Assembly: GCA_017541465.1 (NCBI GenBank)
Contig: JAFXYZ010000014.1
Location: forward strand, 1 to 42,886
Direction of reading: 5' to 3'
DNA length: 42,886 nt
From: a bacterium
Lineage (GTDB): Bacteria > Cyanobacteriota > Vampirovibrionia > Gastranaerophilales > Gastranaerophilaceae
Notes under the pieces: generated by a model
Told to the model about the DNA's origin: nothing
What the model saw: only the letters and a program-made list of their open reading frames with translations
The model's database searches: none
Program-made: the position numbers and the translations under genes
In this document: positions 2,071 to 18,253 of the stretch, piece by piece
Numbering within the stretch: position 1 is the stretch's first letter
Layout of the letters: the number at the start of each line of letters is the position of its first letter

Positions 2071-2091
2071 TTTTCTTTTTATCTAAAAAAA

Positions 2092-2520: not shown

Positions 2521-2555
2521 AAACTTATATTATTCAGAGAAGAGAGGTATATTTT

Positions 2556-3416: not shown

Positions 3417-3439
3417 TCTGATAAAATATAAATTTTCAT

Positions 3440-3475
3440 CACCCCACCCTAACCCTCCCCGTCCAGGGAGGGAAC
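3440..3475 (+). repeat. Degenerate copy of the GC-rich palindromic repeat
   Basis: An intergenic C-rich stretch with CCCTCCC (3453-3459) pairing with GGGAGGG (3466-3472), followed by GGAAC as in the leader repeats. It resembles the second half of the repeats at 2645 and 5226 but is shorter. Confidence 0.5.
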
Positions 3476-3490
3476 ATAGTTCGTAGTTCG

Positions 3491-3513
3491 TAGGGTAGAC
3501 TTTAGTCTACCGA
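3491..3513. repeat. Short dispersed palindrome, copy 1
   Basis: A TAGACT/AGTCTA inverted repeat with flanking GG/CC. A second copy at 26881-26903 differs at only two positions over 23 bases. No T-run follows, so it is not a typical terminator. Confidence 0.55.
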
Positions 3514-3520
3514 TTAAAAA

Positions 3521-3548
3521 AGGCTTGTTCTATTGAACAAGCCTTTTT
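3521..3548. terminator. Bidirectional terminator between pilin-like gene 1 and the opposing gene
   Basis: AGGCTTGTTC (3521-3530) and GAACAAGCCT (3535-3544) form a perfect 10-bp stem with a TATT loop. It is followed by TTTTT and preceded by A6, so it can work in both directions. Confidence 0.85.
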
Positions 3549-3564
3549 CAATACAAAAAATAAA

Positions 3565-4161: not shown

Positions 4162-4602
4162 AATCTCGTGTTCTCCTTTCAGAACTATTAATTTTCTATC
4201 CATACATTGTATAGAACGTAACATAATATATAATAGTTCATTTTTTGAAAAATTAAAAGAAAAAGTTCCAAAAACGGAACTTTCTTATTTAAAAAACCAA
4301 ATCTCACTCCCAATATGTTTTTGTTTATCCTTTTGTTTATCTCATTAGGATAAAACAAAATAAATCTTTTTTAGTAAATAAATTTCTTTCAAAAATAAAA
4401 TTAATTAACAGTCAATTCTTCCCAATCACTTCCCTTGATATTAAGCCATCACTCCTCTCAAAATATTGTTAATCCGTTCCGTTGATTAAAATCATATAAT
4501 CATCATGGTTAGTAAACAAGCATAATTTTATTAATTATTTTTTACAATAGACCATGCCCATAGCGGCTATTGAAGAAACCTGTTTTTACAAACTTTAATG
4601 AA

Positions 4603-4641
4603 CGAAATTTAATGAAAATAGGTAAAATTTCGGGACTTTTT
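4603..4641 (+). terminator. Possible weak terminator or small-RNA 3' end
   Basis: CGAAATTT (4603-4610) pairs with AAATTTCG (4625-4632) over a 14-base loop, followed by GGGACTTTTTT. No coding gene on the plus strand ends here, so an unannotated small transcript would be needed to explain it. Confidence 0.3.
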
Positions 4642-4718
4642 TGCTTGACTTTTTTCTCCCTCATCGCAAACCCAATAAATATACGGGCATGGTAAACTCA
4701 ATAAAAACGCATAAAAAA

Positions 4719-4742
4719 AGAACCTCTGTTTTTAGAGGTTCT
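4719..4742 (-). terminator. Terminator of rpmB
   Basis: AGAACCTCT (4719-4727) and AGAGGTTCT (4734-4742) form a 9-bp stem. On the minus strand it is followed by a run of T (A7 at 4713-4719 on the plus strand). It lies 24 bp past the rpmB stop. Confidence 0.85.
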
Positions 4743-4765
4743 TCTTTTAATAATTTCAAGAAAAC

Positions 4766-4957
4766 TTATACAGCTCTTTTTACTTTGCCTGCTTTGATAC
4801 AGGAAGTACAAACTTTTACTCTTCTGACAGTGCCGTTATCATCAATTTTAACAGACTGAAGATTAGGGCTTTGTCTGTAGACATTATGTTTATGAGAGAA
4901 TGAAAGTTTTGAAGCTTTCAGTTTCTTTTTTCCGCAGATTTCGCATTCGACTGACAT
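4766..4957 (-). CDS. rpmB: 50S ribosomal protein L28
   Basis: A 63-residue basic protein with the L28 pattern: C5-x2-C8 at the start (CEICGKK), the central SFSHKHNVYRQSPNLQ and C50-x2-C53 near the end (VCTSCIKAGKVKRAV). The four cysteines form a zinc ribbon in the zinc-containing form of L28. An AAAGGAAATAAAA ribosome binding site precedes the ATG, and a strong terminator follows. It is transcribed alone, divergent from the second pilin-like gene. Confidence 0.97.
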   Translation of the reverse strand: MSVECEICGKKKLKASKLSFSHKHNVYRQSPNLQSVKIDDNGTVRRVKVCTSCIKAGKVKRAV

Positions 4958-5031
4958 TTTTATTTCCTTTCGATTCGCATTTTATTTCATATTAACCAAA
5001 AGAAAATCATTAATCAAGCAAAATGTTAATT

Positions 5032-5060
5032 TTTGCAAAAATAGGGAAATATGATATTAT
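5032..5060 (+). promoter_or_regulatory. Sigma-70-type promoter of the second pilin-like gene
   Basis: TTTGCA (5032-5037), a 17-base spacer and TATTAT (5055-5060), matching the promoter at 2492-2520 in spacing and in the bases around the -10 (TGATATTATAAACT). Confidence 0.65.
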
Positions 5061-5094
5061 AAACTCATATTGTTTAGAGATGAGAGGATAGTTT

Positions 5095-5982
5095 ATGTTT
5101 AATTTCAAAAATAAAGTTATTCCTACCCCCCCCTATTTCTTTTGGAAAAGAAGTAGGCAAGAAAACTTTTGTAGTTTTGCAAGTTCTATCGGGAATTTAC
5201 TAAATCATAGTTTTGGTAATATAGTTTTTCCTCCCCTTGATAGGGGAGGTCAGGAGGGGTGTCGGTATAATGATGGCTGTAAATTCAACCCTCTCCCTAG
5301 CCCTCTCCCCGAGAGAGGGAACGTGTTGGGCTTCACTCTTGCAGAAGTATTGATTACCCTTGTTATTATAGGTGTTATTGCGGCAATAACTGTGCCAACT
5401 TTAATTCAAAAACACAGAGCAGAAGAATTTGAAGCAAGATTTAAAAAGGCTGTCAGTGTTTTAAATACTGCTGTTAATTATATGAGAATGGATACTTCTC
5501 AGGAATTAACGGTTGAAAATTTCTCTGAGAATACTTTTAAAAATGTATTTAAAAAATATTTTAATGTTATTGAAGATTGTGGTAATAAAGGTTGTTATGA
5601 TAATGCAAAACCACCATATAAAAATTATTCAAATTCGACCAGTGCATGGGTTAATTTGTTTAATGAGGGAAATTTTGTACTAAGTGATGGTATGACAATA
5701 TTTATTGATAATGATGGAGCTGATTTACAGATTTCTGTAGATATTAATGGTTATAAAAAGAAACCTAATAGATATGGTTATGATTTATTTACCTTTGCAC
5801 TTGCATCTTCTTCCGCTAGTTATGCTAAAGGAAAAGGTAAATTATACCCGGCAGGTCATCCTTATACAAGATATTCTAATCAAGATTATTGTTCAAAAAC
5901 ATCTACCGATACTAGAAATGGTATTTCATGTGCTTATGAAGCTTCAAAAAATCCTAACTATTTTAAAGAATTAATGTGGTAA
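5095..5982 (+). CDS. Type IV pilin-like prepilin with repeat-extended leader (copy 2)
   Basis: A paralogue of the gene at 2556 with the same first residues (FNFKNKV), the same GFTLAEVLITLVIIGVIAA helix and the same C-terminal end (NPNYFKELMW). The predicted cut after G79 leaves 216 residues. The 79-residue leader contains the same palindromic repeat (5226-5322) plus about 90 extra bases not found in copy 1, and a C8 tract at 5126-5133. ATG 5095 has a GAGAGGA ribosome binding site; an in-frame GTG at 5323 again follows a purine-rich stretch made by the repeat (GAGAGAGGG). The middle of the mature part has diverged from copy 1 while both ends are conserved, as expected for surface-exposed pilin-like proteins. 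The precise role is unknown. Confidence 0.85.
   Translation: MFNFKNKVIPTPPYFFWKRSRQENFCSFASSIGNLLNHSFGNIVFPPLDRGGQEGCRYNDGCKFNPLPSPLPERGNVLGFTLAEVLITLVIIGVIAAITVPTLIQKHRAEEFEARFKKAVSVLNTAVNYMRMDTSQELTVENFSENTFKNVFKKYFNVIEDCGNKGCYDNAKPPYKNYSNSTSAWVNLFNEGNFVLSDGMTIFIDNDGADLQISVDINGYKKKPNRYGYDLFTFALASSSASYAKGKGKLYPAGHPYTRYSNQDYCSKTSTDTRNGISCAYEASKNPNYFKELMW
5226..5322 (+). repeat. Palindromic repeat inside prepilin leader, copy 2
   Basis: Nearly identical to 2645-2741, with the same two GC-rich hairpins and the same junction with the conserved GTGTTGGGCTTCACTCT of the pilin-like gene. Confidence 0.8.
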
Positions 5983-6007
5983 ACTTTTCATTAAGATAGT
6001 TAAAAAT

Positions 6008-6041
6008 ATTACATTGCTTTTATAGTAATGTAATTTTTTTT
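6008..6041 (+). terminator. Terminator of the second pilin-like gene
   Basis: ATTACATT (6008-6015) pairs with AATGTAAT (6027-6034), followed directly by T7. It lies 26 bp after the pilin stop and upstream of dgt. Confidence 0.75.
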
Positions 6042-6072
6042 GCGCTAAACTGTTGTAGAAAGGTGTTTTTGA

Positions 6073-7119
6073 ATGAGTGTTAAGGAATTGTTTATAAGGG
6101 AGATGCTCGAAGAGGATGAGCTCAAAAACCTCAGTCCTTTTGCTGCAAAAAGCCGCTTTACAAAAGGGCGCAAAGTCGAGGAAGTTCCCTGCGAAATCAG
6201 AACTCAATTTCAGAGAGACAGAGACAGAATTCTTCACTCAAAAGCCTTTCGCCGTCTTAAACATAAAACCCAGGTCTTTTTCTCACCCTTCGATGACCAT
6301 TTCAGAACCCGTATGACACACACTCTTGAGGTTTCTCAGATAGCAAGAACAATTGCAAAATCCCTGAAACTCAATGAGGATTTGACAGAGGCAATTGCTT
6401 TAGGACATGACCTCGGACACACTCCCTTCGGGCACAGCGGTGAAGGTACTTTAAACAAGCTCATGAAGGAAGGGTTTAAACACAATGAGCAGAGTGTCAG
6501 AGTGGTTGAGATAATTGAAAACCTTAATTTAACCCGTGAAACCGTTGACGGAATTTTGAACCATAACGGCGATGTTACTCCCTTAACTCTTGAAGGGCAG
6601 ATAGTCAAAATCTCGGACAGAATTGCCTACATCAACCACGACATTCAGGATGCCCTGAGGGCTGAGATAATAAAACTTTCCGATATTCCCTCCGATTGCC
6701 TTGAATATTTCTCTGTTTCAGGCAGAGAGAGAATTTCAAAGATGATATATGACATTGTCTTAAACAGTTTTGAGCAGGACAGAATTATTATGTCTGAGGA
6801 ATGCAAATTCTATCTTGATAAACTAAGAAGCTGGATGTTTGAAAATGTCTATTTTTCCCGCGGTGCAAAATCTGAAGAAGCAAAAGCACAGGGGGTTATC
6901 GAGAACCTCTTTTATTTCTACTATGAACAGTTAGCCTATAAATACAAGAGTGAGGACGTTTTAAAACTTCAGAGAACCGCCTGCGATTATGTCTCCGGCA
7001 TGACTGACAGATATGCGCTTATTAAATATGAGGAAAATTTCCTCCCGGCGCCGTTTACAAGAAAGAATGATGACGGCTTTTTGTATAAACTTGCTGAAAT
7101 GAACGGACTTGAGGGCTGA
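6073..7119 (+). CDS. dgt: dGTP triphosphohydrolase-like HD-domain protein
   Basis: A 348-residue HD-superfamily protein. The N-terminal RDRDRILHSKAFRRLKHKTQVF is the signature of the dGTPase (Dgt/SAMHD1-like) family. The metal ligands of the HD domain are visible: H83 (MTHTLEV), H112-D113 (LGHDLGHTPFGH) and a later Asp in ISDRIAYINHD. Family activity: hydrolysis of dNTPs to deoxynucleoside and triphosphate; the shorter bacterial type is often less specific for dGTP. An AAAGGTG ribosome binding site precedes the ATG. The stop overlaps the dnaG start by one base (TGATG), so the two are translationally coupled, as in other bacteria with dgt-dnaG-rpoD order. Confidence 0.93.
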   Translation: MSVKELFIREMLEEDELKNLSPFAAKSRFTKGRKVEEVPCEIRTQFQRDRDRILHSKAFRRLKHKTQVFFSPFDDHFRTRMTHTLEVSQIARTIAKSLKLNEDLTEAIALGHDLGHTPFGHSGEGTLNKLMKEGFKHNEQSVRVVEIIENLNLTRETVDGILNHNGDVTPLTLEGQIVKISDRIAYINHDIQDALRAEIIKLSDIPSDCLEYFSVSGRERISKMIYDIVLNSFEQDRIIMSEECKFYLDKLRSWMFENVYFSRGAKSEEAKAQGVIENLFYFYYEQLAYKYKSEDVLKLQRTACDYVSGMTDRYALIKYEENFLPAPFTRKNDDGFLYKLAEMNGLEG

Positions 7120-8993
7120 TGGAAAGAACTTATGCCGATGCACTTGACGAAATAAGAAACCGTGTGGACATCGTCGATATTGTCCAGACAAGAGTTTTGC
7201 TCAAAAGAAAGGGGCAGAACTGGTGGGGCTGTTGCCCGTTTCATAAGGAAAAAACACCCTCCTTTTCCGTTTCGCCTTCAAAAGGTATTTTTAAATGCTT
7301 TGGGTGTGGTGAATCGGGGGATGCCATTACTTTTCTGATGAAAATTAATAATCAGTCCTTCTCAGAGGTTATTCAGGACTTAGCGAAACAATATGGGATT
7401 GAACTTCCGAAAACTTACGGGCAGAAAAAGGATAACAGTGAAGAAAAACAAAAGGCAAGAGAGGCGCTAAAGGATGCCTGCGAATATTATCAGGAAAATT
7501 TATACTCATGTCCCGAAGCAAAGAAGGCGCTTGAATATTTGTATTCACGCGGAATAACCGATGAGATAATAAAAGAATACAAAATCGGGTATTCAATGAA
7601 GCAGTATTCTGCGCTTCAGGAAAACTTTAAAGATAAATACACCTTTGAACTTCTCGAAAAAGCAGGGCTCGTCTTGACGACAGAGAAAGGAAACAAAGTT
7701 GACCGCTTCCGCCACAGGATTATGATACCTATAATTGACGATAAAAACAATATTGTAGCCTTTGGCGCGAGAGCCATTGACGAAGGGCAGAACCCGAAAT
7801 ACCTTAATTCACCTGATACTATCCTCTATAACAAGAGCCGTATTCTCTACGGCATTAATGTTGCGAAGGATGCCATTATAAAAGAGGACTACACAATCAT
7901 TATGGAGGGTTATTTTGACGTTATCTCGGCTCAGGCGAACGGGCTTAAAAACTGCGTTGCAGCCTGCGGAACGGCGCTGACCGTTGACCATATCAAATTA
8001 ATTTCAAGATATTCTCAGTCAAGAAAATTATATCTCGCTTTTGATACCGACTCGGCAGGGGTTATGGCGACAGACAGAAGCTCTGCCGTCATAAAAGAAG
8101 CGTTTCAGGGCTTAGGGGATATAAAATCTTTTGACGCGTCATTTTCCTCTATGAATGAGGATAAATATGCCTGCGAAATAAGGGTAATCGTGCCCCCTCA
8201 GGGTAAAGATCCCGATGAATACATCAGAGAAAAGGGGGTTGAGAGTTATAAAAAATATCTTCAAAATGCCCAGCTCCTGCTTGATTTTCAGATAGACAGA
8301 GCCTTGAAGGAGGTACCAAAGACAGCCTCTGTAAGCGAAAAAATCAGCGCGGTGAGAAAAATACTCCCTTTAATCGAGGAAATTAAAAATAATATCGTTC
8401 AAAATGAATATATAAAGTCCGTTGCTACAAAACTTGGGATTGACGAAACAGCATTGGTGAGGGAATTTAACAACTTGAGCAGGGCGAGTGTACAGGAACG
8501 GCAACAGATTAGTCCAATTGTAACGAAAACTTCAAATATTTCCGAAAAAGCGCAAAAAAATTTGTTGTCCTTATATTTAACCACTGAGAGAACTTTGGAT
8601 TATCATGTTCTTTCAGAAAAACTCAAACAAGTTAAATTTACGGAAAAAAATCTTATAATTCTCAAAAACACAATTGACAAATTAGTATGTCAGGTAAATA
8701 ATGATAATGAAAAATTAACGGATGCCCTGTATGTACACTTTGCTGAGGATAGTGAATTAAAGGAAATAATAACGGATTTAATATATTTATCTGATTGCTT
8801 CAATAATCTTGCGCCAAATGATTTAGAAGCTGTCATAGACGAGAACATTAGCAGAATAAACGCGTATAATGAGACTTGTTTTGAGAAAGAACTGAAAACA
8901 AAATACTCACAGGCTAACAGTGAAGAAGAGTCGATTCAGTATCAAAAGCAACTCATCGAGCAGTTACAGAAGAAATTGAAAACCGGAGATTAA
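7119..8993 (+). CDS. dnaG: DNA primase DnaG
   Basis: A 624-residue primase. The N-terminal CHC2-type zinc finger is C39-x2-H42-x17-C60-x2-C63 (CPFHKEKTPSF ... KCFGCGESGD). The catalytic Toprim core has EGYFDV (E263-D267) and AFDTDSAG (D309, D311). The C-terminal region, which in the family binds the DnaB helicase, is helical and poorly conserved. Within the Toprim region there is an insertion (about residues 330-350, including FDASFSSMNEDKYACEIRV) before the conserved PPQGKDPDEYI. Function: makes RNA primers for replication. It overlaps dgt by one base and is followed by rpoD after at most six bases. Confidence 0.97.
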   Translation: MERTYADALDEIRNRVDIVDIVQTRVLLKRKGQNWWGCCPFHKEKTPSFSVSPSKGIFKCFGCGESGDAITFLMKINNQSFSEVIQDLAKQYGIELPKTYGQKKDNSEEKQKAREALKDACEYYQENLYSCPEAKKALEYLYSRGITDEIIKEYKIGYSMKQYSALQENFKDKYTFELLEKAGLVLTTEKGNKVDRFRHRIMIPIIDDKNNIVAFGARAIDEGQNPKYLNSPDTILYNKSRILYGINVAKDAIIKEDYTIIMEGYFDVISAQANGLKNCVAACGTALTVDHIKLISRYSQSRKLYLAFDTDSAGVMATDRSSAVIKEAFQGLGDIKSFDASFSSMNEDKYACEIRVIVPPQGKDPDEYIREKGVESYKKYLQNAQLLLDFQIDRALKEVPKTASVSEKISAVRKILPLIEEIKNNIVQNEYIKSVATKLGIDETALVREFNNLSRASVQERQQISPIVTKTSNISEKAQKNLLSLYLTTERTLDYHVLSEKLKQVKFTEKNLIILKNTIDKLVCQVNNDNEKLTDALYVHFAEDSELKEIITDLIYLSDCFNNLAPNDLEAVIDENISRINAYNETCFEKELKTKYSQANSEEESIQYQKQLIEQLQKKLKTGD

Positions 8994-8999
8994 TTGATA

Positions 9000-10115
9000 A
9001 TGAGCAGAAAAAAACTTTCAGATTTACAGGTGATTGATGTCATCTCTGAAGAAGATGAAGAAGATACTATGATTGAAGAACAGTCATCAAATACGGATAT
9101 TATTATGATGGCGGATTCCGACAACATCAGCCGTGACGGTCTTGATGTAATTATAAGCTCAGAAAGAGACAAAATCATTGATTCTATGGAGCATGAAGAT
9201 TTGTTTGCCGCTGATGATATGGTTGAAGAAGATGACGATGATGTTACAGCCGACATCGTGCTGCCGAAAGGAATTTCGGTCGATGATCCCGTCAGAATGT
9301 ATTTAAGAGAAATCGGCAGAATTAAACTTTTAACGGCCGATCAGGAAATTGATTTAGCCAGAAAAATTCTTGTAGGCGGTAAAGACGGCGTTATGGCAAA
9401 GAGAAAACTCGTTCAGGCTAACCTTCGTCTCGTTGTCAGTATCGCAAAAAAATATGTCGGACGCGGGATGCTCTTCCTCGACCTCATTCAGGAGGGTAAC
9501 CTTGGTTTAATCAGAGCAGCCGAGAAGTTTGACCACGAAAGAGGTTATAAATTCTCTACTTATGCTACCTGGTGGATTAGACAGGCTATCACAAGAGCTA
9601 TCGCAGACCAGGCAAGAACTATCAGAATCCCTGTTCATATGGTTGAGACTATTAACAAATTAAAGAAGGTAACAAGAAAACTCGCTCAGGAGCTTTCAAG
9701 AAAACCGACCGAGGAAGAACTTGCTGTTGAAATGAATATTTCAATTCCCAAACTCCGTGAAATCGTTAAGGTTGCACAGGAGCCTTTATCACTTGAAACT
9801 CCTATCGGAAAAGAAGAAGATTCAAGACTCGGTGATTTTATCGAGGATAAAGAAGCTGATGCGCCCGTTAAGACTGTTGCTCAGGAGCTTCTCAGAGAGG
9901 ACCTTGCGGAAGTTCTCGGAAGCCTTTCTTTGAGAGAGCGCGATGTACTCCGTCTGAGATTCGGTATGGATGACGGTCGTCAGAGAACTCTCGAGGAAGT
10001 CGGACAGTTGTTCGGTGTTACAAGAGAGAGAATCAGACAAATTGAAGCAAAGGCTCTCCGTAAACTAAGACACCCGAACAGAAGCAAGAAATTAAAAGAA
10101 TATGTAGAAGTTTAA
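9000..10115 (+). CDS. rpoD: Primary RNA polymerase sigma factor RpoD/SigA
   Basis: Region 1.2 ([18 protein letters not shown]), region 2 ([47 protein letters not shown]), region 3 and region 4 with the helix-turn-helix ([20 protein letters not shown]) are all present and close to consensus, so this is the housekeeping sigma factor. An acidic, low-complexity region of about 85 residues stands in place of a long region 1.1. I chose ATG 9000 (371 residues). A TTG at 8994 lies in the same frame and is nearer the GGAG at 8985-8988, so it remains possible. The gene follows dnaG directly and ends at a strong terminator. Confidence 0.96.
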
Positions 10116-10170: not shown

Positions 10171-10389
10171 TTATTCAAAATTAATTCTGTTTACGTTTTC
10201 TTCTTCGATAATAACGTCATTTTCTGCTTCATAGTATTCATCTGTGAGTTTTGTATCGGTGATTTTTATATCGACCAGTTTTTTCAGTATTTCAATATAA
10301 TCAAGGCATTTTTTGCCCTTTACCCCGATGGTTTCCATTTGTATTTCACCGTTTGGCAGTAATTTTATTTTTAGTTTGCGCTCTGACAT
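10171..10389 (-). CDS. DUF2997-like small protein
   Basis: A 72-residue protein whose first 40 residues follow the DUF2997 pattern: a beta hairpin with PNGEIQMETIGVKGKKCLDYIEIL, comparable to the xDGxxxxETxGFxGxxCL core of that family. An acidic tail (VIIEEENVNRINFE) follows. In cyanobacteria, DUF2997 genes commonly lie beside DUF1257/Ycf35 genes, and the neighbour here is a DUF1257-like gene, which supports the assignment. The biochemical function is unknown. An AAAGGAG ribosome binding site precedes the ATG, and the gene is 12 bp downstream of the DUF1257-like gene. It is the last gene of the block. Confidence 0.7.
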   Translation of the reverse strand: MSERKLKIKLLPNGEIQMETIGVKGKKCLDYIEILKKLVDIKITDTKLTDEYYEAENDVIIEEENVNRINFE

Positions 10390-10401
10390 AATTTTACTCC
10401 T

Positions 10402-10929
10402 TTAATCAAGATTAATTGTTAAAACGATGGTGTTATCTTCAAGAACTTCTTCTTCTTCGATTTCCATATTTTTTTCTTTTATTTTATCGACAAGTTGAAG
10501 ATAGGCTTGTTCCTGAACATTTAGTTTATATTCGGAGTCCAGGTTTTCAATTTCGGTTGCCGGTGTTTCGGAAGGATTGTGACGAATTTTGAGTTCAAAC
10601 GCTTCTTCTTTTTTTTCACGTTCAAAAGTGAGTTCAAAATTGTCAATGACGCATTTGATTTTTAAATCGGTTTCCGTTTGGATGTTGCCGCCGTGCTCAC
10701 TCAGAGTTTTTACGAGAGTGTTCTTGTCTGCAAAGACTGTTTTGAAGAGAGTTTCCTCCATAGGTATTGTTTCTTCTTCGTTTGTGCACCCTTCACTTAT
10801 ATATTTGTAGTCAAGATAGTCTTTCTTTGTGCTTTGAGATGTTGTTGCCGCAACTGTTGTTGTTGCTATAATTCCGCCTACAAGCCACCAGCCGAGTGCT
10901 ATCGGCATCGCTACTACTGTACAGGACAT
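10402..10929 (-). CDS. Ycf35/DUF1257-like protein with N-terminal membrane segment
   Basis: A 175-residue protein. Residues 5-30 (VAMPIALGWWLVGGIIATTT) form a hydrophobic segment that usual DUF1257/Ycf35 proteins lack. From about residue 65 the layout follows DUF1257: a TLVKTLSEHGG segment, a beta-rich middle, and an end with helix then strands (NVQEQAYLQLVDKIKEKN, then EEEEVLEDNTIVLTINLD) corresponding to the family's Y-x-x-x-x-E-x-x-x-x-G-[FY]-x-x-x-E-E-E-x-x-x-D-G-T-I ending. The match is at pattern level, so I call it DUF1257-like. It lies between the AAA+ and DUF2997 genes with short gaps and has a strong AAGGAG ribosome binding site. Its function is not established. Confidence 0.6.
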   Translation of the reverse strand: MSCTVVAMPIALGWWLVGGIIATTTVAATTSQSTKKDYLDYKYISEGCTNEEETIPMEETLFKTVFADKNTLVKTLSEHGGNIQTETDLKIKCVIDNFELTFEREKKEEAFELKIRHNPSETPATEIENLDSEYKLNVQEQAYLQLVDKIKEKNMEIEEEEVLEDNTIVLTINLD

Positions 10930-10949
10930 ATATTTTTCTCCTTTTCTTT

Positions 10950-12563
10950 TTAAAAATCCAAAGTTCTTCCGCCTCTGCTTGCTGAGACGTTATTGTTGTC
11001 TATTTCTTTTGTATATTGCGATAAATTAGACTGTTTTGCCGCAGATACCGCTCTTACGTTTGCCCATGCCCTTAAAGATAAAATCTGTTCTCTTTGGGTT
11101 GTTGAGAGAGGAACGGTCGTTTTTATGTTTTTTATTAAATCGTTATAGGTCAGAGGTCTGTTTTCAAAGAAGGCATCGCAGAGTGATGAGATAACTACCT
11201 GTTCGATTTCGGAACCGATGAACCCTTCCGTTGCCTGTGCCAGATTTGAGCATAATTCCTGCAAATCACCGATTTGGCTGGCAACTTCCCTGTCTTTCAG
11301 CCTTTTTTTGAGGTGGAGTTTAAAGATTTCTTTTCTCTCTTCCACCGTAGGAAGGTCAACAAAGAAAATTTCATCAAAACGCCCTTTTCTCAATAGTTCG
11401 GGAGGAAGAGTTCCTATATTGTTTGCCGTTGCGATAACAAAAACAGGTGAGGTTTTTTCCTGCATCCAGGTTAAAAATTGCCCGAAAATTCTTGAGGAAA
11501 CACCGCTGTCTGCGTTTGAACCCAGTCCGCTAAGTCCTTTTTCTATTTCATCTATCCATAAAATACAGGGGGCAACGGCTTCCGCCATATTTAATGCCCT
11601 TCGCATATTTTCTTCAGAGCTTCCGACAAGTCCGGAGAAAACTTTGCCAAAATCAAGTTTTAAGAGAGGCAGCTGCCAGATGGTACTCATGGCTTTTGCC
11701 GTCAAACTCTTACCGCAACCGGGAACTCCCGTTACAAGAACACCTTTGGGTGCGGGAATACAATACCTCTTTGCCTGTTCTGACCAGGAGTTGTTTCTTT
11801 TTAACAGCCAGCTTTTGAGGTTATCAAGACCTCCGATGTCATCTATGGAGTAGTCGGAGCGGACAAATTCCAAAATTCCCGTTTTCTTGATTACCTGAAT
11901 TTTTTCCTCCATAATAACGGGCAAATCAGACATGTTTATCTTGCCGTCATTTACCATTGCAAGTGCAAAGGCACTTTCTGCCTCCTTCAGAGTGAGTCCG
12001 AGAGCCGCCTTGCAGAGTTTATCTATTTCCTCCTCCGTCAGTTCGCTTTCCACCTTTGCATTCTGGCTCAGCATTCCTTTAAATTTGCTTTTTATTTCCT
12101 GGAGTGTCGGGAGGGGAAAATCAAAGAGGGTAATCTCTTTCTGGAGTGATTCGGGGATAATCAGCTCGGTAGATACAAAAATAACGGTTTTTCTGACTGC
12201 TCCGAGCTTTAAATCGGGAACAATATCCCTCAGTTTTCTTATGATATTGTAGTCGGGCTGTCTGTTTTTGAGCCCGAAGTTTACGTGGAAATCATAGAGA
12301 ATAAACACCGCGTCTTTATTATATTTCTGGATAAAATCAAGAGCCTTGTTCGGTGCGGTTGTGTCACTTACTGAGTGCTGGGTGGTGTCGTTATATAAAC
12401 CCGTTGTCTGCGCCCAGGTGAACACTTCTCTCGGGTATTTGACCAGTTCCGTGTTTGTCGCAATCGCTTTTATGTACTTTGTCACCCTGTCCTCTTCAAA
12501 GGTGGTGATGTAGATCATCGGGAATCTTGCTCTGATTAAATTGTCAAGTTTGTATTGGCTCAT
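10950..12563 (-). CDS. Ycf46-like AAA+ ATPase
   Basis: A 537-residue protein. Residues 1-235 form the Ycf46-type N-terminal region (DNLIRARFPMIYITTFEEDR; a degenerate ATPase-like domain). Residues 240-480 are a classical AAA+ module: Walker A GVPGCGKS (279-286), Walker B ILWIDEIEKG (334-343), sensor 1 VIATANN and an arginine-finger segment LLRKGRFDEIF. The C-terminus is a flexible Ser/Arg/Gly stretch ending GGRTLDF, which shares the R-x-[ILV]-D-[LIF] tail of the seven HhH proteins upstream. Ycf46 is known from plastids and cyanobacteria, with no settled biochemical role here. It follows the radical SAM gene by 16 bp with an AGGATAA ribosome binding site, in the same operon. Confidence 0.88.
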   Translation of the reverse strand: MSQYKLDNLIRARFPMIYITTFEEDRVTKYIKAIATNTELVKYPREVFTWAQTTGLYNDTTQHSVSDTTAPNKALDFIQKYNKDAVFILYDFHVNFGLKNRQPDYNIIRKLRDIVPDLKLGAVRKTVIFVSTELIIPESLQKEITLFDFPLPTLQEIKSKFKGMLSQNAKVESELTEEEIDKLCKAALGLTLKEAESAFALAMVNDGKINMSDLPVIMEEKIQVIKKTGILEFVRSDYSIDDIGGLDNLKSWLLKRNNSWSEQAKRYCIPAPKGVLVTGVPGCGKSLTAKAMSTIWQLPLLKLDFGKVFSGLVGSSEENMRRALNMAEAVAPCILWIDEIEKGLSGLGSNADSGVSSRIFGQFLTWMQEKTSPVFVIATANNIGTLPPELLRKGRFDEIFFVDLPTVEERKEIFKLHLKKRLKDREVASQIGDLQELCSNLAQATEGFIGSEIEQVVISSLCDAFFENRPLTYNDLIKNIKTTVPLSTTQREQILSLRAWANVRAVSAAKQSNLSQYTKEIDNNNVSASRGGRTLDF

Positions 12564-12579
12564 AATTTATCCTTTTTTT

Positions 12580-13185
12580 TTATCTTATCTTAATTTTGAC
12601 TTTTTCTAAATCGAGTGATTGAAGTATCTCGTCAAAGTTGCCCATTCCGTTCATAAAAACCAGCCCGTTTTTGGAAATATTTACTTCAACCTTGTTTTTG
12701 TATTTCGTAAAAATGCCCTCGTCATATCTGTTTGTTAAAAAATGGTATCTTTGGTTCTCAGAACCGCACCAGGGGCGGGAATAATCAACTTTATCAACCT
12801 CAAAAGCCCCGTCTATTAAGAGGTCGGTGTTCTCTAAAAGAGTTTTATTTTTTTTGTTTTTTCTTAAATTTTCGATTAAATCACCCGTAAAACATAAGAC
12901 GCTGAGACCTTCTTTCTTGACTTCTTTTGCAATATAACCCAAAACTTTCGCCTGCTCAAAGGGTTCTCCGCCCAAAAAGGTTACCCCTTCGATTTTTTCT
13001 TTGTGCTCCAGAATATCTTTTATTATATCATCGGCGCTATAGAGTGTGCCCTCGTCAAAAGACCAGGTATGAGGTGCCTGACAGCCTCTGCAGTGTCTCG
13101 AACAACCCTGTACCCAGATGCAGTATCTTGTTCCGGGGCCTTCTACTTTTGTATTTTTTAATATTTTATAAACTCTTAATTTCAT
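12580..13185 (-). CDS. NrdG-like single-domain radical SAM protein
   Basis: A 201-residue radical SAM protein from the ATG at 13185; an upstream in-frame TTG at 13221 is less likely. It has C28-x3-C32-x2-C35 (GCSRHCRGCQAPHTWSF) for the 4Fe-4S cluster and GGEP (72-75) for SAM binding. The late motif PWCGSENQRYHFL matches the WRGSSNQ region of NrdG (anaerobic ribonucleotide reductase activase). There is no NrdD gene in the window. Its place between the HhH array and the AAA+ gene suggests a dedicated partner, perhaps modifying a protein of this block (inference). The upstream sequence has TATAAT exactly 6 bases before the ATG, with a TTGATT-like -35 inside the end of the preceding HhH gene. Confidence 0.85.
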   Translation of the reverse strand: MKLRVYKILKNTKVEGPGTRYCIWVQGCSRHCRGCQAPHTWSFDEGTLYSADDIIKDILEHKEKIEGVTFLGGEPFEQAKVLGYIAKEVKKEGLSVLCFTGDLIENLRKNKKNKTLLENTDLLIDGAFEVDKVDYSRPWCGSENQRYHFLTNRYDEGIFTKYKNKVEVNISKNGLVFMNGMGNFDEILQSLDLEKVKIKIR

Positions 13186-13216
13186 TATCCTATTATACTT
13201 TTTTTTCTTCCTATAA
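13186..13216 (-). promoter_or_regulatory. Possible internal promoter before the radical SAM gene
   Basis: On the minus strand, TATAAT occupies 13192-13197 and ends 6 bases before the ATG. TTGATT lies 18 bases upstream of it, inside the last codons of the HhH gene (the Ile-Asp-Leu tail). The AGGA beside the ATG is too close to be a good ribosome binding site, so a leaderless internal transcript is possible. Confidence 0.4.
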
Positions 13217-13912
13217 ATCAATATTTCTTTCGGTGTAATGAAAACCTTTTTCTTCGTTTTTTATTTTGTTTGCAACAATTATGTCTTTCAGGTTTTCTCT
13301 CATTTTCGGAGATAGATTTAAATAATCAAATAGTTCGTTTATGTCATTAAACCCGCCGATTTCTTCTCTTCTTTTTATTATCTTTTTGGCATGTATTATG
13401 CTTATCCCCGATAGAAGTTCTAATTCTTTTTCGCTCGCAGAGTTTATGTCCATTAATTTCTGGTATGCTTTTGCCTTTGAGGGTTTTGGTTCTTCTTCTC
13501 TCAGGGCAACAATACCCGTTGTTTCTTTCGTTAAAATCTTGTTATTATTGATTATTTTTCTTAAATCTTCATAAGTGGTATCCTGATTAAAGACAGTGCA
13601 AACCTCAAAGAGAATATCTGATCTTTCAATTTCGGTATTTCTGATTGCTTTTAAAATCAGGCCTTTTTCACCTGTCGATAAATCTCTGAGTTCAATTTTG
13701 TTTTTAAATAAGAAAATACACCTTTTGTTTGAAACAGTAAGACAGCTTTCACCTTTGCTGTAATTGATATATTTCCCTGCGCCTGAGACAGCATCATACA
13801 GTTCTTTCTGTGAATTTACAAACTTACTTCTCTTCGCCTGCAGAGTCTGCCATTTCCGCTGTAAAAATGCTATTGCATATAGACCTATTATAAACCAGAT
13901 TATTATACCCAA
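13211..13912 (-). CDS. Membrane-anchored HhH (ComEA-type) protein, array member 1
   Basis: A 233-residue protein with an N-terminal membrane helix (residues 3-17), a middle domain (about 55-130: CLTVSNKRCIFLFKNKIELRD ... TTYEDLRKII) and a ComEA-like helix-hairpin-helix region (154-212: MDINSASEKELELLSGI ... AKKIIKRREEIGGF). The hairpin reads LSGIS rather than the usual LPGIG. It ends ERNIDL. The start codon appears to be TTG, with a weak AGAGAAG ribosome binding site and no near ATG. In ComEA the HhH region binds double-stranded DNA without sequence preference; binding here is inference. It is the array member nearest the radical SAM gene, 25 bp away. Confidence 0.82.
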   Translation of the reverse strand: MGIIIWFIIGLYAIAFLQRKWQTLQAKRSKFVNSQKELYDAVSGAGKYINYSKGESCLTVSNKRCIFLFKNKIELRDLSTGEKGLILKAIRNTEIERSDILFEVCTVFNQDTTYEDLRKIINNNKILTKETTGIVALREEEPKPSKAKAYQKLMDINSASEKELELLSGISIIHAKKIIKRREEIGGFNDINELFDYLNLSPKMRENLKDIIVANKIKNEEKGFHYTERNIDL

Positions 13913-13981
13913 TTTTCTTCTCTTTACTAACCTTCAAAACTGTCCTGAATTATTATTCGTCTGTTTTTCAGGGAACTTTAA

Positions 13982-14674
13982 TTATAAATCAATTTTTCTT
14001 TCTTCTGTTCTTTCTGTTTTATGTTTTTCGATTTTTTCCGCTTTTAAAATGGGATAGAGTTGTTTTTTGATGTTTTCGGTGAGTTTTGTATATCTGAAAA
14101 AATCCTCGAGGTCTTTAAAACCTCCTGTATCTTCCCTTCTTTTTATTATTTTTTTAGCGAGAATAACGTTAATTCCGCTGAGAGCACTTAATTCTTCAAG
14201 TGTTGCAGAGTTTACGTCTATCATTTTTTTTGCTTTTATTTCTGTTTCTGTTTTATAGGTAACCTTTTTTGGGGGTTCTTCAGTCGTTACACCGCATTCA
14301 TGTATAATGTACCACAGTTTTGCATAGTTCATCTTATCATTGAGGGCAGACAGAGTTTCGTAGAATATCCTGTCTCTTGCACTTTTTTTGATGAATACCG
14401 TTCTTGCATACCTGCGTGTATTCTTTTGGGATAAATCTTTTATCTCAATTTCTTTAGCAAAACATATAGAGCAATTTTTGTTTGAAACAGTTAAATACTT
14501 CTTTTTTCTTTTCTTTTTTGTACCAAGGTACTTTCCTGCCGTTGAAATTAAAGAGTACACTCTTTTTATAAATTTTGTTTTTTGCCTGAAATCAAGCGAG
14601 GCAATTTCGAGAAAGGCAAACAAAATTTTGCGGTCGGTAAAAAACATTAAAAGTAGTGCTTTAATGAAGTTCAA
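13982..14674 (-). CDS. HhH (ComEA-type) protein, array member 2
   Basis: A 230-residue paralogue of its neighbours. The N-terminal part is less clearly transmembrane (IKALLLMFF, then ILFAFLEIASL), so its membrane anchor is uncertain. The middle domain (60-130) has YLTVSNKNCSICFAKEIEIK, very close to member 1. HhH region 152-210 (MIDVNSATLEELSALSGI ... AKKIIKRREDTGGF) again has LSGI. It ends EERKIDL. The start is TTG at 14674 with AAAGG eight bases upstream; an in-frame ATG at 14647 is an alternative. The 69 bp before the next gene contain a degenerate copy of the intergenic element seen at 17515 and 18272. Confidence 0.8.
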   Translation of the reverse strand: MNFIKALLLMFFTDRKILFAFLEIASLDFRQKTKFIKRVYSLISTAGKYLGTKKKRKKKYLTVSNKNCSICFAKEIEIKDLSQKNTRRYARTVFIKKSARDRIFYETLSALNDKMNYAKLWYIIHECGVTTEEPPKKVTYKTETEIKAKKMIDVNSATLEELSALSGINVILAKKIIKRREDTGGFKDLEDFFRYTKLTENIKKQLYPILKAEKIEKHKTERTEERKIDL

Positions 14675-14685
14675 TTTTTCAGCCT

Positions 14686-15363
14686 TTATAAATCAACATT
14701 TCTTTCGTCAAATTTTTCAATCTCCGTTTTTTCAATTTTTTTAAAAATAAGAATTGAAGAAAGCTGTTTTTTTATGTCATCTGTAACTTTAGTATAATCA
14801 AAAAACTCCTCGGAGTTTTTAAACCCTCCGATTTCATCTCGTCTTTTTATTATCCTTTTGGCGTAGATGATGTTTATTCCGGGAAGTTCTCTCAGTTCTT
14901 TTTCAGAGCAGTTGTTTATATCCGTTAATTTTTTTATTTGTCTTTCATCATAAACTATTTGTTCTTTTATTCTTATTCTCAATTCGTTTTCAAATATATT
15001 TTTGATAGAATCGTAATTGCTGTAATAAATAAACGAATTGCAGAGTCTATCCCAAACCTCTCCCGTTCGTTTATCGCTTATATATGTGAAAGTTCGGTGT
15101 TTGAGTGCGGGATTTTTTTCAATAACGTAAATCATATCGGCACTTTGAGATAATAGGATTTTGCAATAACCATTTTCGAGTGACATTTTTTTTCTTAATG
15201 CTACTCTTTGTAATTTCTGTTGCTTTTCTTTTTCTATTTCTGTCTGCGAAATGTTTGATCTTAAATCAGTTATATATATGTAATTTCGATTTAAGTCAAT
15301 AATAATTAGACTAAACAAAAAAATAAATAATATTGACGCTATAAAAATAAATACAAAATCCAT
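14686..15363 (-). CDS. Membrane-anchored HhH (ComEA-type) protein, array member 3
   Basis: A 225-residue protein with an N-terminal membrane helix (residues 3-22: FVFIFIASILFIFLFSLII), a charged linker, and a middle domain (65-140) of the second subtype (YCKILLSQSADMIYVIEKN, SNYDSIKNIF), which members 4 and 5 share. HhH region 147-205: TDINNCSEKELRELPGI, then YAKRIIKRRDEIGGF. It ends DERNVDL. The start is ATG, only 1 bp after the stop of member 4, so translation is probably coupled. The HhH DNA sequence is almost the same as in member 4, pointing to recent duplication or gene conversion. Confidence 0.82.
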   Translation of the reverse strand: MDFVFIFIASILFIFLFSLIIIDLNRNYIYITDLRSNISQTEIEKEKQQKLQRVALRKKMSLENGYCKILLSQSADMIYVIEKNPALKHRTFTYISDKRTGEVWDRLCNSFIYYSNYDSIKNIFENELRIRIKEQIVYDERQIKKLTDINNCSEKELRELPGINIIYAKRIIKRRDEIGGFKNSEEFFDYTKVTDDIKKQLSSILIFKKIEKTEIEKFDERNVDL

Positions 15364-15364
15364 T

Positions 15365-16060
15365 TTAAATATCTATGATTCTTTCTTTTGTCTTTTGTGT
15401 TTTCTTTTCAACTTTGAACTTATTGCAGCAGATAAGTTTTGTCAGTTTTTTTCGGATTCTATCTGTTACTTTAATATAATCGAAAAATTCTTTGGAATCT
15501 TTAAATCCGCCGATTTCTTCTCGTCTTTTTATTATCCTTTTGGCGTAGATGATGTTTATTCCGGGAAGTTCGCTCAGTTCTTTTTCAGAGCAGTTGTTTA
15601 TGTCCGTATAATTTTTCGGTTTGAACTTGTTTTTGTCACTATAGATGACCCGTTCTCTGACTTTAGTTTTGAAATCTTGTGTAAAAATCATTTTTACGAA
15701 ATTATAATTACTTGAAGAATCAAATAAATAAGAAAGTGTATTCCAAATCATAGGTATTTTATCTTCTGCGAAGCAGGTAAAGGCATGATATTTTGGTTCT
15801 TCAGTTTTTTCAATAACGGTAATTATATCTCCCTCATTAGATAATCTTATATAACAAAAATCGTTATCAAAATATTGGTTTTGTTTAGCGGCTTTTCTTA
15901 CTGCTTCTTTTTGTTTTCTTATCCTTTGTACTCTTTCACTTTTGTATGCATTAAAGACAATATGATTGGCATTGTACTGTTTTGAGAGACTGTCAGATAA
16001 AACAATCAAAATAAGAAGTAAAATTATCGGTAAAAATGCTATAATATATATTGTGAACAA
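15365..16060 (-). CDS. Membrane-anchored HhH (ComEA-type) protein, array member 4
   Basis: A 231-residue protein: membrane helix 3-21 (TIYIIAFLPIILLLILIVL), a basic linker, middle domain of the second subtype (65-140: FCYIRLSNEGDIITVIEK, SSNYNFVKMIF), and HhH region 152-210 (TDINNCSEKELSELPGI, then YAKRIIKRREEIGGF). It ends KERIIDI. The start appears to be TTG (16060) behind an A/G-rich stretch without a clear ribosome binding site. It ends one base before member 3 begins. Confidence 0.8.
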   Translation of the reverse strand: MFTIYIIAFLPIILLLILIVLSDSLSKQYNANHIVFNAYKSERVQRIRKQKEAVRKAAKQNQYFDNDFCYIRLSNEGDIITVIEKTEEPKYHAFTCFAEDKIPMIWNTLSYLFDSSSNYNFVKMIFTQDFKTKVRERVIYSDKNKFKPKNYTDINNCSEKELSELPGINIIYAKRIIKRREEIGGFKDSKEFFDYIKVTDRIRKKLTKLICCNKFKVEKKTQKTKERIIDI

Positions 16061-16080
16061 AATTTTCTTTCTTTTTCTTT

Positions 16081-16719
16081 CTACAAATCGAGGTTTCTTT
16101 CGTCAAATTTTTCTGATTTTACTTGTTCCGTTTTTCCCAAAATTAGAAATGGAGTCAGTTCGTTTTTGATGATTTCTGTCAGTTGGAGAAATTCAAATAG
16201 TTCTTCTTTGTCCTTGAAACCACCGATTTCTTCCCTTCTTTTTATTATCTTTTTAGTAAGAATAATGTTTATCCCGGGGAGTGCCCTCAGCTCTTTTTCC
16301 GTACAGCTGTTTATATCGAGCAGTTTTTTAGAGGATATTATTTCTTCTTTTACCTGCACTTTATAATTGTTATTAATCTTATTTTTTATATAATCATAAT
16401 CTGTAACATCAATGAAAAAGTCATTTATAAAATTCCATACTTTAGGAGTATTTGTATCGCTGACATAACGGAATGTGCGGTATTCCCTGCTTATATTGAT
16501 TTCCGTGACTTTAATTGTATGGTTGTCTTTTGTCCTTTGGACAACACAATATTTATTCCTGATTAAAAATTCTTTCCTGTTTTTTTCTTTATTATCTCTC
16601 TTTCTTATAATTTCATTTTGAAACCAGTTTGCTTCCAGTCGTATATAAATGAAATATAATAAGAAAAAGATTATTATCGGAGAAACAACGGATAATATAT
16701 AAAAAGTAACACTATTCAT
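16081..16719 (-). CDS. Membrane-anchored HhH (ComEA-type) protein, array member 5
   Basis: A 212-residue protein: membrane helix about 5-27 (SVVSPIIIFFLLYFIYI), middle domain of the second subtype (55-125: YCVVQRTKDNHTIKVTEI, TDYDYIKNKI) and HhH region 135-192 (LDINSCTEKELRALPGI, then ILTKKIIKRREEIGGF). It ends DERNLDL. ATG start with an AAGGCAGG ribosome binding site. The gap to member 4 is 20 bp. Thr replaces the Ala that usually starts the second helix of the motif (LTKK instead of LAKK), as also in the copy at 17567. Confidence 0.82.
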   Translation of the reverse strand: MNSVTFYILSVVSPIIIFFLLYFIYIRLEANWFQNEIIRKRDNKEKNRKEFLIRNKYCVVQRTKDNHTIKVTEINISREYRTFRYVSDTNTPKVWNFINDFFIDVTDYDYIKNKINNNYKVQVKEEIISSKKLLDINSCTEKELRALPGINIILTKKIIKRREEIGGFKDKEELFEFLQLTEIIKNELTPFLILGKTEQVKSEKFDERNLDL

Positions 16720-16736
16720 CTGATTGCCTGCCTTCT

Positions 16737-17000
16737 CTATATATCCAGATTTCTTTCGTCGGATTTTTTGTTCTTCTTCTTTTCCATTTCTTTGAAGATG
16801 ATAACAGGAAAAAGTTGTTTTTGTATGTCATCTGTAACTTTAGTATAGTTAACAAACTCATTAAAGTTTTTAAATCCCCCGGTTTCTTCTCTTCTTTTTA
16901 TTATTTTTTTAGCAAGAATAATATTTATTCCGGGGAGTTCTTTTAATTCCTCTTCACTTGCCGAGTTTATATCAATTTTGGGCGAATTGCTTTTTTCCAT
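16737..17000 (-). CDS. HhH C-terminal half of a frameshifted array member (member 6b)
   Basis: An 87-residue ORF holding only the HhH region (IDINSASEEELKELPGI, then ILAKKIIKRREETGGF) and the common tail DERNLDI. It overlaps the 3' end of the ORF at 16967, which holds only the membrane and middle domains. Adding one base to the A6 run (16991-16996) would join both into a protein of about 253 residues with the same architecture as the other members. The ATG at 17000 has an AAGGAGG sequence, but only one or two bases away, so independent initiation is possible but not ideal. Either a broken gene, a slippage-controlled gene, or a sequencing error. Confidence 0.75.
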   Translation of the reverse strand: MEKSNSPKIDINSASEEELKELPGINIILAKKIIKRREETGGFKNFNEFVNYTKVTDDIQKQLFPVIIFKEMEKKKNKKSDERNLDI

Positions 17001-17500
17001 TCCTCCTTCTTATTAATAGTAGAACCCTCTACTGATATTTGATTATTGATAAAGTAGTTATAAATATTTCCATATGTTGTTTTTCGGTTAAAGGTTCGGA
17101 CAAGATAATTGATGAAATTAGCTCTTTGTTCCTTTGTCATATCTTTTGTTTTGATAGATGTGATATTAAGTGAATAGTCAAGAATTCTGACTTCTATTTC
17201 TTCTTCAACATATATACAGCAATTTTTGTTTTTAAGTACTTTGCAGTTTCTTTCAGAATCTATGGATACAAATTTTCTTAAACTGCCCGGCACGATTTTT
17301 AAATCCTTTGCAAATATTCCTATTATGGCTCGTTCGATACGTTGTGGTGTACCCTCTAAAAAATAGAATGAAATAATTACAAGCGGGATGAGAATCAATG
17401 CAACAACAATATTGTTTGTTAATGCTAATAAACAGAAAGTTACAAGAATTATTAATAACACAAATATTAATTGTATAATTGTTTCAATCAATATGCCCAT
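16967..17500 (-). CDS. Membrane and middle-domain half of a frameshifted array member (member 6a)
   Basis: A 177-residue ORF with two membrane helices (about 7-27 and 30-48, where other members have one or less) and a middle domain of the first subtype (85-150: NKNCCIYVEEEIEVRILDY, KTTYGNIYNYF). It then runs out of frame after EEWKK and stops at AIRPKLI, without HhH region or common tail. The HhH half follows in the -1 frame at 16737. The ribosome binding site is weak. Upstream (17515-17565) is the intergenic element also found before the gene at 17567. Confidence 0.72.
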   Translation of the reverse strand: MGILIETIIQLIFVLLIILVTFCLLALTNNIVVALILIPLVIISFYFLEGTPQRIERAIIGIFAKDLKIVPGSLRKFVSIDSERNCKVLKNKNCCIYVEEEIEVRILDYSLNITSIKTKDMTKEQRANFINYLVRTFNRKTTYGNIYNYFINNQISVEGSTINKKEEWKKAIRPKLI

Positions 17501-17514
17501 TTATAATAAAATCT

Positions 17515-17565
17515 TTCACTAATCTCTGTTTTTTTTGTCGGTTGATTTCTTTTGAACTTTAATTT
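17515..17565 (-). repeat. Duplicated intergenic element before an HhH gene, copy 1
   Basis: It shares TTCACTAA-CTCT, TGTCGGTTGA and AACTTTAATT in the same order and similar spacing with 18272-18320. A weaker version lies at 13924-13984. All three are immediately upstream of genes of the HhH array. Confidence 0.55.
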
Positions 17566-17566
17566 C

Positions 17567-18253
17567 CTAAAAATCAATTTCTCTTTCTTCTTTTTTCTGT
17601 ATCTTTTTGTTTCCTTTATACGGTTGAACGCAAATAGTTTTTAAAAGCCTGCTTTGAATTTTGGGTGATACCCTGATAAAATTCAAAAAATCACTGAGGC
17701 TTTCAAATCCTCCGATTTCTTCCCTTCTTTTTATTATTTTTTTTGTAAGAATAATATTTATTCCGGGAAGTGCTTTTAATTCTTCTTCATTAGCCGAGTT
17801 TATATCGGTTTTTGTTTCCTCCTTTTTTGTTTCTTGCGGGACATATAAGGTATCATCTCTTATAAGTGTTATATTCCTGCCCTTCAGAAAATCATGGATA
17901 TTTTCATAAGTCGTATTCTCGTTAAAAATCAAACAAAGAAAATTTTTAAGGTCTGTTTTTTGTTGTTGTGTTATTCCCTTCGTTTTGACGGCTCTTATTT
18001 CTGTTGTAAAATTATAGTTTTTGAGTTCAATTTCCCTGTCAAGTAATACACAGCAGTTCAGGTTCTCAAATTTAAGGCATTTTCTTTTGGGGTGATTTGA
18101 TATATACCTGTGAAGGTAGATGGGAACACTGATTATATTCCACCCTTGTCCCAGCAATGATAGTCGCCCTATCATGTTTGTGATCAGACCTAATGCCCCA
18201 ATAAATATGCAGACAAGTATAATACCTAATACATATTGAAAAACAAATTCCAT
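17567..18253 (-). CDS. Membrane-anchored HhH (ComEA-type) protein, array member 7 (first in operon)
   Basis: A 228-residue protein: membrane helix about 6-27 (QYVLGIILVCIFIGALGLI), middle domain of the first subtype (58-130: KFENLNCCVLLDREIELKNY, TTYENIHDFL), a short charged linker and HhH region 150-207 (DINSANEEELKALPGI, then ILTKKIIKRREEIGGF). It ends EEREIDF. The ATG has no clear Shine-Dalgarno sequence. It is the promoter-proximal gene of the block; all further genes down to 10171 run in the same direction with gaps of 1-69 bp or overlap. Confidence 0.82.
   Translation of the reverse strand: MEFVFQYVLGIILVCIFIGALGLITNMIGRLSLLGQGWNIISVPIYLHRYISNHPKRKCLKFENLNCCVLLDREIELKNYNFTTEIRAVKTKGITQQQKTDLKNFLCLIFNENTTYENIHDFLKGRNITLIRDDTLYVPQETKKEETKTDINSANEEELKALPGINIILTKKIIKRREEIGGFESLSDFLNFIRVSPKIQSRLLKTICVQPYKGNKKIQKKEEREIDF

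Follow-up and report, generated by a model that had tools for sequence, protein, structure and literature searches.

An AAA ATPase and its predicted clients share a short C-terminal tail in a widespread gene module of Gastranaerophilales and other bacteria

The 42,886-nt stretch of Gastranaerophilaceae DNA analyzed here (the window) carries an operon in which seven genes for helix-hairpin-helix (HhH) proteins accompany genes for a radical SAM protein (rSAM), an AAA ATPase, a diverged DUF1257 protein and a DUF2997 protein. The question raised by this locus is what these genes have in common, and what one ATPase may do for a set of mostly membrane-anchored paralogues. The best reading of the sequences is an AAA-serviced client or effector system with a shared C-terminal tag, which is undescribed and widespread and whose function is predicted.

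The common feature lies at the extreme C-terminus, where the ATPase and its partners end in the consensus [G/E]-R-x-[ILV]-[DE]-[F/L/I/Y/V/W]. All seven HhH genes of the window terminate in E-R-x-[ILV]-D-[LIF], and the window ATPase terminates in R-G-G-R-T-L-D-F. A survey of all open reading frame (ORF) ends in 80 loci around ATPase relatives found this tail on 62 of 64 HhH proteins, 51 of 70 ATPases and 4 of 992 other ORFs; it was found on no rSAM, no DUF1257 and no DUF2997 protein. The background rate of the tail in these loci is about 0.1%. The sequences are related, so that Fisher tests on these counts express the contrast and not independent events. The four other ORFs with a tail are themselves module genes, namely a paralogue with two transmembrane (TM) helices at locus L048 and three two-TM Mrr-nuclease proteins, of which the copy at L057 was assigned by sequence likeness. 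Of the 75 distinct HhH tails, all have Arg at position -5 and D or E at -2, 74 have V, I or L at -3, and the last residue (-1) is L, F, Y, I, V or W throughout. The 51 distinct ATPase tails read [RHS]GGRx[ILVF][DE], with GGR in all; they were picked with a GR pattern, which makes GR present by construction, the second Gly and the remainder not. Extra residues follow the GGR motif at L084 (RGGRQIDFGD) and L071 (GGRVLAFPLSGGSR). In the tree, the tailed ATPases all fall within one well supported clade of 68 rows. Proteins without HhH also bear the tail: two-TM proteins, TPR proteins and a membrane-anchored Mrr nuclease. Judged by these sequences, the constant part of the predicted client set is the C-terminal tail that it has in common with the ATPase, not the HhH domain. 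The initial annotation had described a constant HhH end joined to a variable middle; the variability of the N-termini proved general, while the constant part is the tail.

The tail also serves as a search pattern. At the DNA level, E-R-x-[ILVM]-D-[LFI]-stop has eight matches in the genome of the window; seven are the HhH genes, and the eighth encodes Ser for Arg. A scan of 40 family genomes with this pattern pointed to contig 6 of genome G009, which carries a tailed HhH gene and, downstream of it, an rSAM gene; the ATPase-DUF1257-DUF2997 locus of G009 on contig 8 had appeared without HhH and rSAM. Matches on G019 C123 and G021 C2 correspond to no tailed ORF of at least 60 codons and were counted as chance. 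The pattern thus eases the finding of clients, having alone located the missing pair in G009.

The initial annotation had suggested looking for the ATPase, rSAM and HhH genes together in other genomes. They do occur together, far more often than chance would give: rSAM, DUF1257, DUF2997 and HhH genes all lie within 6 kb of the ATPase gene in 52 of 123 loci of ATPase relatives, and 50 of these 52 complete loci have a strong, strictly terminal ATPase tail, the other two being L084 and L071. Presence of the tail and of HhH is concordant in 114 of the 123 loci (54 with both, 60 with neither). Loci were found in Gastranaerophilales, Bacillus relatives, Paenibacillus, Clostridium, Arthrobacter, Nocardioides, Asanoa, Tenacibaculum and Sebaldella, and further in an Armatimonadetes metagenome-assembled genome (MAG) and one betaproteobacterium; taxa are named as in the records, among them MAGs whose labels may be wrong. 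The order of the module genes is shuffled between groups, and plasmid copies are present in Paenarthrobacter and Rhodococcus. An ATPase orthologue with at least 52% identity occurs in 12 of 36 genomes of the window's family, and a relative at E<1e-90 in 10 of 398 Bacillota genomes. Of 14 further loci from the family and order, most consist of the ATPase plus at least some partners. This distribution of sequences supports the view that the genes form one conserved functional unit. Two genomes, G007 and G029, each have two ATPase loci of the tailed clade, which in G007 belong to different sub-lineages.

The operon comprises 12 co-directional ORFs on the minus strand, running from 18253 down to 10171 with spacings of 1-69 bp or short overlaps. 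The HhH genes are named H1 to H7, and the two parts of the split gene H6 are H6n and H6c.

H7, 17567..18253, minus strand: TM segment, diverged middle, HhH, tail EREIDF
H6n, 16967..17500, minus strand: 5' part of the split HhH gene; two hydrophobic segments and middle domain; tail-less
H6c, 16737..17000, minus strand: HhH, tail ERNLDI; reading frame -1 to that of H6n, with an overlap of the two at an A6 run
H5, 16081..16719, minus strand: TM segment, middle, HhH, tail ERNLDL
H4, 15365..16060, minus strand: TM segment, middle, HhH, tail ERIIDI
H3, 14686..15363, minus strand: TM segment, middle, HhH, tail ERNVDL
H2, 13982..14674, minus strand: HhH, tail ERKIDL; TM segment not called by the hydropathy cut
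H1, 13211..13912, minus strand: TM segment, middle, HhH, tail ERNIDL
NrdG-like rSAM, 12580..13221, minus strand: CxxxCxxC cluster motif (GCSRHCRGC); tail-less
AAA ATPase, 10950..12563, minus strand: long N-terminal region without Pfam match and one AAA domain; Walker A GVPGCGKS, Walker B ILWIDE, flexible C-terminus ending RGGRTLDF
Diverged DUF1257 (Ycf35-like) protein, 10402..10929, minus strand: hydrophobic N-terminus; predicted core beta-alpha-beta4-alpha-beta2
DUF2997 protein, 10171..10389, minus strand: Pfam match; GxxC cysteine

The 12 ORFs and seven HhH genes, one of them split, agree with the initial annotation of 10171-18253, as do its AAA ATPase and DUF2997 calls: radical SAM (Fer4_12/Radical_SAM), AAA and DUF2997 domains all exceed the Pfam cut-offs in the window proteins. 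HHH_3 exceeds its cut-off in the four scanned window HhH proteins that keep the domain and, in a search of the 2.1-Mb genome, in all seven HhH genes, the single match elsewhere being below the cut-off. A membrane helix "usually" present at the N-terminus had been claimed together with a diverged middle domain; a simple hydropathy scan places an N-terminal TM segment in six of the seven genes, H2 being the exception. Identity among the HhH paralogues is low in the N-terminal and middle part (20%) and in the linker (26%) and rises to 59% in HhH and 66% over the final six residues. As far as the sequences tell, the client set of the window has expanded to seven paralogues whose middle domains have diverged. 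The G+C content of the HhH array (13000-18000) is about 0.29-0.32, that of the rSAM-ATPase part 0.39-0.41, and the flanks are also clearly higher than the array. H6 shifts to the -1 frame at TGGAAAAAAGC (16967-17000, minus strand), immediately 3' of AAGGAGG; its split could be due to a frameshift mutation, an error in the A6 homopolymer, reinitiation or a programmed frameshift.

Outside the window, other N-termini take the place of the single TM segment and diverged middle. They comprise two TM helices in Bacillota and Actinomycetota, TPR repeats in Clostridium and a second Gastranaerophilales lineage, a GYF_2 domain in Paenibacillus, and an Mrr_cat nuclease with two TM helices, in which inspection finds the GDGGVDI...QCKH motif kept. 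The N-termini of the predicted clients are thus modular in sequence and are joined to the HhH domain and/or the tail via a variable linker.

The HhH domains and membrane anchors are of the kind expected of a DNA-uptake or competence apparatus in which ComEA-like receptors work with an ATPase, an option raised by the initial annotation. The ComEA cut-offs are missed, with best window scores of 39.6 vs 152.35 bits for TIGR01259 (38.7 for H1) and 29.2 vs 53.1 bits for TIGR00426 (also the score of H1). Inspection finds positive charges after the TM segment in the window HhH proteins, which by the positive-inside rule weakly suggests that the HhH side is cytosolic. Nuclease and TPR clients and the patchy distribution also speak against uptake, which is very improbable.

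Reduced versions of the module bear on which protein reads the tail. At the Sanguibacter (L080) and Flavimobilis (L087) loci, the gene next after that for the ATPase encodes a two-TM protein with the end GRRLDL; in G032 the ATPase is accompanied by two tailed proteins, one with TPR repeats and one an Mrr nuclease. Genome-wide, DUF2997 is missing from all three, and no DUF1257 or HhH was seen near these loci; rSAM matches in the L080 and L087 genomes are distant, with at most 35% identity. The ATPase's own tail is lost in L087 and G032, and the client tails are retained. With nothing but the ATPase and tailed clients kept in these three versions, sequence grounds favour the ATPase as tail reader over the other candidates. 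Where rSAM, DUF1257 and DUF2997 occur without HhH, the strong ATPase tail is missing; the ATPase therefore appears to work with these three tail-free. Two such HhH-less loci, L069 and L076, have a two-TM protein ending SRKLDL or GNKLDL.

AAA machines commonly grip terminal peptides. In the proposed mechanism, the AAA ATPase ring would capture the C-terminal tails of clients, most of them membrane-anchored, and then remodel or release these; the probability of this joint claim is put at about 0.5. The ATPase's own tail might act as a pseudo-client or docking element. The rSAM, DUF1257 and DUF2997 proteins would be joined in an accessory unit that has the ATPase or the clients as its target and is dispensable in the reduced versions. 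HhH clients would hold nucleic acid at the membrane, where the nuclease client would cut it, and the biological role would be conflict with foreign DNA.

Instead of the ATPase, a common scaffold might read the tails and hold the ATPase and clients together, the candidates being HhH and DUF1257 (with DUF2997). DUF1257/DUF2997 are present at nearly all tailed loci, and weak tail-like ATPase ends (KERKLEF, KRHLDI) occur with them at loci that have neither rSAM nor HhH. The DUF1257 assignment itself is by profile comparison. The label Ycf35-like in the initial annotation finds no match to PF06868 in Pfam at E<0.1, and the relative at L041 also stays below the cut-off (18.4 vs 22.2); hhalign nevertheless identifies the window protein as a diverged DUF1257 homologue (probability 97.9, E 5e-13, 108 columns) against a profile set whose true members exceed the PF06868 cut-off. 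A model of the protein resembles the AP2 beta2-appendage platform, whose structure was determined with a peptide, at a modest Z of 9.2 over 80 residues, which is near the noise level of the tool; KA1 and TBP-like folds are also matched at modest Z. Foldseek returned nothing below E 1e-3 for this model, and a PDB sequence search with DUF1257 and the ATPase N-terminal region gave no meaningful match. That the latter region might be a degenerate AAA domain is only a reading of its sequence. The reduced versions count against a scaffold, as their tailed clients persist where DUF2997 is missing from the genome and no DUF1257 or HhH is nearby; HhH, moreover, does not dock its own tail in an AlphaFold model, and HhH-less tailed clients exist. 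A scaffold of this kind is judged rather unlikely. As a universal tail reader, HhH is weakened by the tailed clients without any HhH nearby.

Known members of the NrdG/PflA-type rSAM enzymes act on a protein near its C-terminus. The window rSAM is of this type, GG is invariant in the ATPase tails and rSAM is found in most tailed loci, so the tail could instead be an rSAM substrate that is chemically modified in the manner of a ribosomally synthesized and post-translationally modified peptide, for example by a glycyl radical on the ATPase GG or by another backbone or side-chain change. This is improbable: L069 and L076 keep rSAM with ATPase tails that lack GG (ARKLYF, GRILHF), Gastranaerophilales clients have E in place of G, rSAM occurs tail-free at L121 and at several viral loci, and tailed clients persist in the reduced versions, where DUF2997 and a close rSAM are missing. 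The glycyl radical in particular is weakened by those rSAM loci whose ATPase has no GG or no tail. The NrdG-like call of the initial annotation stands for the radical SAM domain and falls short for the NrdG equivalog TIGR02491 (115.6 vs 126.1 bits). An NrdD at C15:5751-7478 of the same genome has its own adjacent NrdG-like rSAM at C15:7562, which rules out the window rSAM as NrdD activase and gives it another target. The NrdD match (G000:C15:5751-7478) contains an internal TAA.

The DUF2997 protein passes the gathering cut-off of PF11211 (42.4 vs 24.1 bits), and the GxxC cysteine is invariant in 83 of 83 relatives. Related ATPases on viral contigs occur with rSAM, DUF2997 and sometimes DUF1257, with no tails and no HhH. 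On a Treponema succinifaciens plasmid (L111, 7345-9500), rSAM and a related ATPase ending VRKLEM lie in a VgrG/baseplate contractile-injection cluster that contains no DUF1257, DUF2997 or HhH. Because these viral and Treponema ATPases have partners without tails, the rSAM/DUF1257/DUF2997 set looks like the older ATPase association, and the tailed clients like a later layer on one clade. In mycobacteriophage Shida (L115, 4857-8084) the last residues of the ATPase are VRVLDL; gene product 95, encoded nearby, contains SGRAIDF and GYALDF near its C-terminus, possibly the module tail in a phage. Small proteins of 56-64 aa ending CG are encoded upstream of the ATPase at L083 (9777-9956), L088 (9792-9962) and L085 (1412-1606); two of these loci are from Omnitrophota and the third is from another MAG, which has DUF1257/DUF2997 and neither rSAM nor HhH.

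Concerning the biological role, the conflict option of the initial annotation gains indirect support from the tailed membrane Mrr nucleases, from integrases beside some copies of the module and from an AbiTii gene in the vicinity of one. In G032 the copy has a tyrosine integrase gene on one side and AbiTii/resolvase genes on the other, and integrases of the same Pfam family adjoin L052 and L055. Nuclease clients, signs of mobility and patchy distribution make defence the best guess, held tentatively and at somewhat less than even odds. Several observations weigh against the account given so far. All partners are lost together, so that the candidate readers are not separated, and the concordance of tail and HhH does not name the reader because the tailed clade shares all partners; a phylogenetic sign test of the tail against each partner had too few independent changes for significance. 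In the AlphaFold model of HhH plus tail, the tail is disordered beside HhH. The window HhH hairpin is GIN/GIS, not GIG, for which reason DNA binding by HhH is only putative. Neighbours of the module are mostly housekeeping genes; among 138 neighbours screened with PADLOC and Pfam in a survey without a control set, about six gave strong PADLOC defence matches and five were integrases, and a defence-island signal is not established by it. Some Gastranaerophilales relatives carry the module beside the same downstream genes, so that inheritance there looks vertical rather than mobile.

The neighbours and the partly vertical inheritance would suit a housekeeping nucleoid-membrane or protein quality-control module without a conflict role, and in Pseudanabaena a related DUF1257-DUF2997-ATPase set stands beside Hsp70 and GrpE. 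Arguments in the other direction are the patchy distribution, the copies on plasmids, the integrases, the nuclease clients and the fast divergence of client N-termini, and such a role is judged rather unlikely. The fuller proposal is offered as a possibility, with more reserve than the defence role taken by itself: a new prokaryotic conflict system in which an AAA machine would recognize a dedicated C-terminal tag on an expandable and modular group of DNA-binding and nuclease effectors tethered to the membrane, with rSAM, DUF1257 and DUF2997 as accessory unit, plastid Ycf35 and Ycf46 being descendants or cousins of its core.

The short tag common to the ATPase and to diverse clients provides a simple handle on the system across several phyla and plasmids, and it may be a new way to couple an AAA machine to effectors. 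The system also gives a functional context to DUF1257 and DUF2997, families common to cyanobacteria and in part to plastids.

The module could be assigned to none of the known systems compared with it. The initial annotation knew of no described system of such composition, and none was found in literature on DUF1257, DUF2997, Ycf46, Ycf35, the gene combination and the tail (subscription journals were outside coverage). The vWA-MoxR ternary conflict systems combine an NTPase chaperone with variable effectors including Mrr-like nucleases (Kaur et al. 2020, PMC7159879); one subset has a radical SAM enzyme, for which modification of a peptide effector is proposed (PMC7159879). The module resembles them in its NTPase, variable predicted clients, Mrr-type nucleases and rSAM. 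It differs in that no vWA, MoxR or FtsH domain is present in the module proteins and tailed clients scanned with Pfam, and the text of PMC7159879 mentions neither helix-hairpin-helix nor Vps4 nor a C-terminal tail. In the cyanobacterial gene cluster DUF2997-ycf35-fed7 (PMC4284462), DUF2997 adjoins DUF1257 as in the module, and a ferredoxin stands where the module has rSAM. Cyanobacterial plasmids have full-length AAA relatives of the ATPase at only about 36-44% identity, and no curated Ycf46 model turned up. The only cyanobacterial plasmid locus inspected (L112, Pseudanabaena, 1568-9725) has no HhH and no C-terminal tail; GrpE and Hsp70 are encoded there beside DUF1257, an ATP-binding protein, DUF2997 and an AAA ATPase.

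With the antiphage ATPase of IetAS (IetA, also IteA) the module shares a CDC48-like AAA domain (PDLC02196, 4e-23), but the NF042959 score is 70.4 against an NCBIfam cut-off of 510 bits and the similarity is limited to the AAA part. Likeness to ComEA and NrdG consists in the HHH_3 domain of the HhH proteins and the radical SAM domain of rSAM. In the ESCRT-III/Vps4 system, paralogous membrane-associated clients with short C-terminal motifs are serviced by one AAA ATPase. The module would work in a comparable way, with its paralogous membrane-associated predicted clients, C-terminal motifs and single AAA ATPase. In the N-terminal region of the module ATPase, where an MIT domain would be sought, Pfam gives no match. 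The differences are that rSAM and the DUF proteins have no counterpart and that, unlike in ESCRT-III/Vps4, the module ATPase bears the client motif itself.

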